Assembly: GCA_005222965.1 (NCBI GenBank)
Contig: NJBG01000001.1
Location: forward strand, 675,533-739,532
Origin: Candidatus Woesearchaeota archaeon B3_Woes
GTDB taxonomy: Archaea; Nanobdellota; Nanobdellia; Woesearchaeales; B3-WOES
Direction of reading: 5' to 3'
DNA: 64,000 nucleotides
Shown: one piece after another, positions 19,671 through 57,653 of the stretch
Numbering within the stretch: the first letter of the stretch is position 1
How the letters are laid out: the number at the start of each line of letters is the position of its first letter
Translations under genes and position numbers: made by a program
The notes under the pieces: generated by a model
The model's input: the letters and a program-made list of their open reading frames with translations, nothing else
Told to the model about the DNA's origin: nothing
The model's database searches: none

Positions 19671-19768
19671 GCCTCCATAGCTTAGTAGGTAGAGCGTGCG
19701 ACTGTTAATCGCAAGGTCGGCAGAAACGATATAAAAGTCGTTGTCGAATTCAAGTCTGCCTGGAGGCG
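19671..19768 (+). tRNA. tRNA-Asn (GTT) with a 25-nt intron in the T-arm
   Basis: Acceptor GCCTCCA/TGGAGGC, anticodon stem TGCGA/TCGCA with loop CTGTTAA (anticodon 19704-19706). The T-stem GGCAG/CTGCC is interrupted: removing 19724-19748 restores GGCAG-TTCAAGT-CTGCC, a perfect T-arm. The proposed splice sites sit in two 3-nt bulges (AG^A and AA^T) flanking a 4-bp helix CGGC/GTCG, with an intron hairpin AACGA/TCGTT, which is the bulge-helix-bulge recognised by archaeal splicing endonuclease. Discriminator is G; CCA is not encoded. A T-run follows. Confidence 0.93.
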
Positions 19769-55136: not shown

Positions 55137-55297
55137 TGCTCCTAAGGGGATTTGAACCCCTGTCTCAGGCTTTTTCTAACAGATTATGCGAGCGTTTAGC
55201 GAGCAAGTGTGGCTTTATGCCGCACCTTGCGTGTCAACCGCGCGTAACCAGTTGTTGCGAGAAGCCTACATGCTTGACCGGACTACACTATAGGAGC
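55137..55297 (-). tRNA. tRNA-Glu (CTC) with an 86-nt intron at 37/38
   Basis: Minus strand: acceptor GCTCCTA/TAGGAGC with A73, anticodon stem TAGGC/GCCTG, loop TTCTCG plus A after splicing (anticodon complement 55259-55261), T-stem AGGGG/CCCCT. The intron is 55172-55257. A strict bulge-helix-bulge forms: TTCT/AGAA central helix, bulges CG^C and AA^A, intron stem AACA/TGTT. The intron itself folds into a long imperfect stem (GCAAG-GTG-x-GGC with its complement). Confidence 0.96.
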
Positions 55298-56971: not shown

Positions 56972-57471
56972 TTCCCAAACTCTTCTAATCTGTATTCTCC
57001 TTCCTCTTCAGTCATCTTTATTTTATGTAAATCCACTTTACTATCTTTTAACAAGAATTCTTTTATCATTGATAAATCACTCGGAATTATTTTTGTATTT
57101 TTTAATTCATTAATATCAAACCATTGCAACTCTCCTTCTTTTGTAGCCTGTATATTTGTATGTAATGGCTTTAATTTACAAACATATATCATAAGATGAG
57201 CGACCTTATCATCTTTATTATGGATAATTTCAGAAGCAATACCCCTAAACCCTTCAAATTCACAATCTAAATCTGTTTCTTCTTTTATTTCTCTTAAAGC
57301 AGTCTGTTCAGGGTGCTCTCCAAACTCTATTTTACCACCAGGCATACTCCAAAATCCAACATAAGGAGGCGTAACCCTTTTTATCAAAAGAATTTTATTA
57401 TCATTAGTAATCCCACTAATAACTATACTAATAAGCTTATTATAATTTTTTCTTGAAGTTTCTTCCCCCAT
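56968..57471 (-). CDS. Nudix hydrolase
   Basis: A 167-residue pyrophosphohydrolase with a complete Nudix box: GGKIEFGEHPEQTALREIKE then ETDL (about 46-69). Substrate likely an oxidised or activated nucleotide; genes for two other nucleotide house-cleaning enzymes follow with ATGA overlaps. The start at 57471 is chosen because an earlier in-frame ATG at 57534 lies inside tRNA-Ala. Confidence 0.9.
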   Translation of the reverse strand: MGEETSRKNYNKLISIVISGITNDNKILLIKRVTPPYVGFWSMPGGKIEFGEHPEQTALREIKEETDLDCEFEGFRGIASEIIHNKDDKVAHLMIYVCKLKPLHTNIQATKEGELQWFDINELKNTKIIPSDLSMIKEFLLKDSKVDLHKIKMTEEEGEYRLEEFGK

Positions 57472-57478
57472 TTTAAAA

Positions 57479-57564
57479 TGGACCCACCGGGAATTTCGTA
57501 ATATATATCGAACCCGGAATCTCACCCAAGCCAAGGGCGTATTTTACCATTAAACTATGGGCCC
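57479..57564 (-). tRNA. tRNA-Ala (GGC) with a 14-nt intron in the T-loop
   Basis: Minus strand: acceptor GGGCCCA/TGGGTCC contains the G3-U70 pair that marks tRNA-Ala; anticodon stem CGCCC/GGGTG with loop TTGGCTT (anticodon complement 57530-57532). The T-stem CCGGG/CCCGG is intact but the loop is 21 nt. Removing 57493-57506 leaves TTCGATT, a normal T-loop. Helix TTCG/CGAA with bulges AT^A and AT^T forms the splicing motif at exactly these sites. Mature length 72; A73; CCA not encoded. Confidence 0.93.
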
Positions 57565-57653
57565 TGTAATTAAATCAATTACACTATCTTTAAAAACATT
57601 TCTACTTTATCATAAATTATATAAACCTACAATCTTTACTTTTAATTAGAAAA

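Follow-up and report, generated by a model that had tools for sequence, protein, structure and literature searches.

The tRNA-Ala(GGC) gene of Candidatus Woesearchaeota archaeon B3_Woes raises the question of whether an oversized T-loop can hide a protein-spliced intron and, if so, which enzyme would remove it. The gene lies in a 64,000-nt stretch of DNA (the window), for which a sequence-only reading had predicted a 14-nt intron in a 21-nt T-loop; the sequence, sliding deletions and orthologues agree with this prediction. The gene has a 7-bp acceptor stem with the G3-U70 pair named in that reading, a D-arm, a 5-bp anticodon stem closing the loop TTGGCTT (anticodon GGC), a CCGGG/CCCGG T-stem and a discriminator A, and the 21-nt T-loop is its single abnormality. 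Without 57493-57506 the T-loop becomes TTCGATT, of 7 nt, as the reading had stated (Table 1). A cut at 58/59 would give the same product as one at 59/60, and the motif rule favours 59/60.

Table 1 The tRNA-Ala(GGC) gene, its parts and its upstream region, in window coordinates.
Feature	Position	Strand	Details	Basis
tRNA-Ala(GGC) gene	57479..57564	-	86 nt unspliced, 72 nt predicted mature	fold, scanner parse, orthologues
5' exon	57507..57564	-	positions 1-59	alignment with intronless orthologues
Predicted intron	57493..57506	-	14 nt, between positions 59 and 60	sliding-deletion test, orthologues
3' exon	57479..57492	-	position 60 to discriminator A73	sequence
Splice helix (4 bp), exon strand	57509..57512	-	TTCG (T54-G57)	RNAfold; covariation at position 57
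Splice helix, intron strand	57495..57498	-	CGAA	RNAfold; GAA kept in orthologues
3-nt bulge, 3' splice site	57492..57494	-	ATT, predicted cut AT|T	structure
10-nt hairpin loop with 5' splice site	57499..57508	-	ATATATATTA, predicted cut AT|A	structure
Anticodon	57530..57532	-	GGC	parse; ARAGORN on shortened gene
TTTAAA, putative TATA-like element	57589..57594	-	25-30 nt upstream of tRNA	read by eye

A parse as tRNA-Pro(UGG) through a shifted anticodon loop was rejected: the shifted stem has mismatches, and the loop ATGGCAT of one orthologue (L113), which fixes U33-GGC, also excludes it. Position 37 is U rather than a purine in most Ala(GGC) orthologue anticodon loops (TTGGCTT, TTGGCTA). Beyond the tRNA 3' end, at window 57471-57478, a gap of only about 7 nt leads to the probable ATG of a NUDIX-like ORF on the same strand.

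The unspliced gene escapes standard detection: ARAGORN did not report it in a scan of the window, nor, with its intron option, when given the unspliced gene itself, and its score with the Rfam tRNA model is 19 bits, where the cut-off is 29. We ran ARAGORN on copies of the gene from which 8-20 nt had been removed, with the deletion starting at each position in turn. This yielded 56 tRNA reports, every one of them tRNA-Ala(GGC). The rescuing deletions are all 11-16 nt long and start at gene offsets 51-63, in the T-arm; across the whole gene, no deletion outside the T-arm restored detection. The anomaly is therefore one T-loop insert and not general decay, and its removal restores a standard tRNA, as for an EndA-spliced archaeal tRNA intron. 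As a control, a strict scanner for tRNAs with T-loop introns found two matches in 1.58 Mb of shuffled sequence. A second intact tRNA-Ala(GGC), which the sequence-only reading had named as counter-evidence, was not found in the genome, in tandem or elsewhere, by searches with the Rfam tRNA model (E<=10), the gene itself and a T-loop-intron-tRNA model. With completeness at 96%, in an assembly of four contigs, the absence of a second copy is likely rather than certain.

At the splice site, a 4-bp exon-intron helix (TTCG/CGAA) is accompanied by the 3-nt bulge ATT. This helix, with cuts predicted at 59/60, bears out the sequence-only reading, which had further placed the cuts in two 3-nt bulges; that placement holds for the 3' site only. 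ATT is the sole closed bulge: at the 5' site, the ATA stretch is separated from CGAA by only 7 nt and so belongs to a hairpin loop of 10 nt. No inner helix closes a second 3-nt bulge (RNAfold gives at most a 2-bp closure), and the canonical hBHBh' form is thus absent: an intron of this length leaves no room for an inner helix, which makes the motif a bulge-helix-loop rather than a complete bulge-helix-bulge. A point against splicing is that the splice helix, taken in isolation, is weak (-8.9 versus -6.6 kcal/mol for the T-stem alone). Compared with canonical bulge-helix-bulge introns at 37/38, the motif shares the 4-bp central helix, a 3-nt bulge and a predicted cut after the second bulge base; it differs in its position at 59/60 and in having no inner helix, hence no closed 5' bulge.

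We are highly confident that this is a functional, single-copy tRNA-Ala(GGC) gene whose 14-nt T-loop insert is a protein-spliced archaeal tRNA intron, cut by EndA and joined by RtcB. In the precursor, the CGAA at the 3' end of the intron would pair with exon T54-T55-C56-G57, and the resulting helix would stack beyond the T-stem across the 3-nt bulge to give the bulge-helix-loop. EndA, the sole splicing endonuclease found, would cut after the second bulge base and at the corresponding position within the hairpin loop, and RtcB would then ligate the exons into the normal 7-nt T-loop TTCGATT. The gene structure, the predicted helix with its covariation, the presence or absence of the insert in relatives and the EndA and RtcB genes are observed; excision, the cut sites, the homotetrameric state of EndA and its ability to cut a bulge-helix-loop we infer.

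Both enzymes are encoded, as for EndA-spliced archaeal tRNA introns: RtcB was found at E 1e-159, and PF01974 (E<=1) matches one EndA gene (G000:C1:502384-502890). A second EndA gene was found neither with PF01974 (E<=1) nor with a profile of eight order members (E<=10). The EndA ORF is a single catalytic gene of 194 aa and not a fusion, close to the roughly 180 aa of the alpha4 type, and its Y130, H140 and K171 are invariant in an eight-row alignment. Its best matches among solved structures are the Nanoarchaeum equitans catalytic subunit and the Methanocaldococcus jannaschii alpha4 EndA. Aligned to Aeropyrum pernix 3p1z_B, it has a 9-residue gap at what we take to be the crenarchaea-specific loop (CSL). 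Like alpha4 enzymes it has no CSL, and 30 aligned orthologues look alike. It has the same length and domain plan as the M. jannaschii enzyme (1a79), with the catalytic Tyr/His/Lys and an acidic stretch near the C-terminus. Unlike 1a79, it carries KPG(E/D)DHA(K/R)W before and around the catalytic His, as do most of the 30 orthologues. The best sequence match is the N. equitans catalytic subunit (3iey_A, 127 bits), with H(A/S)KW common to both; N. equitans has a separate beta subunit, whereas none was found in this genome. Typing the endonuclease, a check proposed in the sequence-only reading, thus points to one single-subunit EndA without CSL, which is presumably a homotetramer.

What such an enzyme is expected to cut is described in the literature. 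T-arm introns exist in archaea, and relaxed motifs are reported to be handled by (alpha-beta)2 and epsilon2 EndAs bearing a CSL or ASL, with alpha4 EndA restricted to canonical motifs (PMC6379350, PMC4033280, PMC8707768, PMC12397907). Bulge-helix-loop cleavage in particular is assigned there to (alpha-beta)2, epsilon2 or homodimeric EndA and not to the homotetramer (PMC8707768, PMC6379350, PMC4033280). By its sequence, then, the EndA found here belongs to a single-subunit type that these papers do not credit with bulge-helix-loop cleavage. The sequence-only reading had held that a relaxed-specificity endonuclease is needed: for the short form this follows from the literature, and it sits awkwardly with a lone EndA of, to judge by sequence, an uncredited type.

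The non-canonical T-arm introns known so far (hBH, HBh' and bulge-helix-loop forms, mostly of Thermoproteales) share with this one the T-loop position, the 4-bp exon-intron helix and the 3-nt bulge at the 3' splice site, a likeness drawn from their published descriptions, and the same EndA/RtcB chemistry is expected. They differ in that the published descriptions tie them to (alpha-beta)2 or epsilon2 EndA with CSL or ASL, whereas here there is one CSL-less EndA gene, in a host outside the Thermoproteota. Among other archaea, N. equitans EndA is described as broad in specificity (PMC12397907); the nanoarchaeon Nst1 is reported to be without a beta subunit, but with just two intron-bearing tRNAs (PMC3655853); and Asgard genomes are reported to have many non-canonical tRNA introns (PMC11291895). 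Our literature searches, in which coverage of subscription journals is poor, turned up no account of T-loop introns for Woesearchaeota or for DPANN archaea.

The intron might instead be removed, but not by EndA alone, if an undetected second subunit, an accessory factor or a host enzyme supplied the relaxed specificity. The papers cited credit relaxed motifs only to loop-bearing, multi-subunit or homodimeric EndAs, the best structural match is a catalytic subunit which works with a beta subunit, and a 96% complete assembly leaves some room for a missing gene. Against this, the EndA gene is single by both profiles, and in 129 of the 134 relatives where EndA matches at all there is just one. Moreover, a partner resembling the N. 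equitans beta chain would be expected to have shown up, since that chain itself matches this EndA by sequence (4.6e-16). We regard a missing partner as unlikely, yet worth taking seriously; whether EndA alone cuts the minimal bulge-helix-loop form is, in our view, close to evenly balanced.

The preferred reading, an intron spliced out by EndA and RtcB, finds comparative evidence in the orthologues of the gene. The 86-nt gene was used to query 145 genomes, most of them from the same order, and gave 30 loci, among which are 19 strictly parsed Ala(GGC) orthologues with G3-U70 (own gene included): 10 with an insert of 14-34 nt and 9 with a 7-nt T-loop, a count that leaves out L116 (long insert, unparsed), L122 (intronless, unparsed) and L133 (inserts elsewhere, misparsed). 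The insert-bearing orthologues carry unrelated inserts at the same place in the T-loop, and GAA stands at the intron strand of the splice helix in 9 of the 10, again counting the own gene. G001, the closest relative and a member of the same family, likewise has an insert of 14 nt; its exons are identical to ours at 62/72 positions and its intron at 7/14. It has compensatory changes at acceptor pairs 6 and 7 and at one T-stem pair, and its splice helix is TTCA/TGAA in place of TTCG/CGAA, a further compensatory change from G57-C to A57-T. The L130 and L133 orthologues both have variable-region inserts, and L133 a D-arm insert as well; the Ala(GGC) gene is therefore interrupted at different places in different relatives.

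Could the insert be retained, with the cell using a tRNA with an expanded T-loop? G001 does keep the 14-nt length, but lengths among the parsed orthologues range over 14-34 nt and 9 of the 19 genes are intronless. The insert also pairs with T54-G57, bases which hold the elbow in mature tRNA, and the cell encodes both EndA and RtcB; we consider retention very improbable. A pseudogene in decay or an error of assembly, as the score under the Rfam cut-off might suggest, is barely credible given that no other Ala(GGC) gene was found, that all stems pair and show compensatory changes relative to G001, and that a similar gene with a 14-nt insert occurs in an independent genome.

For the spliced intron, the pairing at position 57 can be followed across many inserts. 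Fifteen inserts were gathered ahead of any motif model, and in these the combination at position 57 and its partner is A-T in 9, G-C in 2, A-G in 2 and G-A in 2; the 4/15 without a Watson-Crick pair count against the splice-helix reading. Among 66 distinct inserts (13-48 nt) the combinations are A-T 45, G-C 13, A-G 3, G-T 3, G-A 1 and A-A 1, and the three bases next to the partner are GAA in 60, a table biased by shared ancestry and by a search model, containing the 57 pair, that found most of its rows. Fisher tests on the pairing gave 2e-8 and 1e-10, values that take no account of kinship or of the presence of this pair in the search model. RNAfold predicts an inner hairpin in 53 of the 54 inserts of at least 20 nt; most T-loop introns here are therefore ordinary bulge-helix-bulges in an unusual place. 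In the 12 shortest (13-16 nt, the own gene's included) there are 6-9 nt from the ATA-like stretch to the partner strand and no inner helix, so the short T-loop introns, that of tRNA-Ala(GGC) among them, are bulge-helix-loops.

These introns are widespread in the relatives. R2, a 35-position model of a T-arm with intron built from 15 sequences (own gene among them), matches 107 of the 145 relatives at E<=0.01, a tally that may include 27-nt intronless T-arms of the type met in the bacterial control and in G150. We therefore use the figure from the matches listed: 150 rows, all with 12-53-nt inserts, in 78/145 relatives. This runs counter to the sequence-only reading, which had called T-loop introns rare outside some Thermoproteota. 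An independent strict scanner parsed 30 of 40 listed matches, hand-picked down the list, as complete tRNAs, and failed to parse the other 10. Of 371 genomes drawn evenly from the phylum, 193 match, including 45 that belong to other orders within the class. Among 14 named archaeal genomes from other records two match, and the Woesearchaeota record L034 has no match with the T-arm model, a result that speaks neither way. As a control, one of 35 bacterial genomes matches, by a 27-nt intronless T-arm, and none gives a match of intron length; in 359 kb of bacterial loci R2 finds nothing above 15.4 bits, against 38.2 bits for the own gene, which belongs to its training set.

Several other tRNA genes of this genome look interrupted. 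Further T-loop introns were seen in Ala(TGC), which closely follows a 16S-like 3' end, and in Asp(GTC), Val(TAC) and a tRNA-Ser (L101, L102, L106, L200); Ala(TGC) and Asp(GTC) also have anticodon introns, as seemingly does the tRNA-Ser. A tRNA-Pro(TGG) (L199, G000:C1:156900-157500, minus strand) has an anticodon intron and a T-loop intron, and its 5' acceptor strand reads GGG, 29 nt, GCTA; splicing would restore GGGGCTA, so that the acceptor stem may hold a third intron. In the window, tRNA-Asn(GTT) (19671-19768, + strand) has a 25-nt insert at 53/54 (19724-19748), whose CGGC/GTCG and AACGA/TCGTT helices, read by eye, suggest a relaxed motif without an outer helix, and tRNA-Glu(CTC) (55137-55297, - strand) has an anticodon-loop intron of about 86 nt that the whole-genome search caught in part. 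Contig C4 of the assembly (6.3 kb; L001, L005, L008, L010) has four tandem tRNAs, three of them followed directly by CCA, with a bacterial look, and is possibly a contaminant.

What is new is the setting: T-loop introns across an order, some of them minimal, together with a single plain EndA. ARAGORN, and Rfam at its cut-off, miss such genes, and tRNA sets in these genomes can therefore look falsely incomplete. Relaxed activity may be a property of the catalytic subunit in the broader lineage, by analogy with N. equitans EndA, since that enzyme is described as broad in specificity. More generally, we give an even chance to the proposal that T-loop introns form a standing class throughout the order and in sister orders, with the near-invariant TTCR of the tRNA itself supplying one side of the splice site, and that the shortest of them (about 12-17 nt), as bulge-helix-loops, are cut by a lone, single-gene, CSL-less EndA. 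If this is true, intron type would no longer follow from EndA architecture in the way now accepted. In a lineage that combines one plain EndA with many T-loop introns, bulge-helix-loop ones included, a single small protein and a short RNA suffice for a direct test of the architecture rule.
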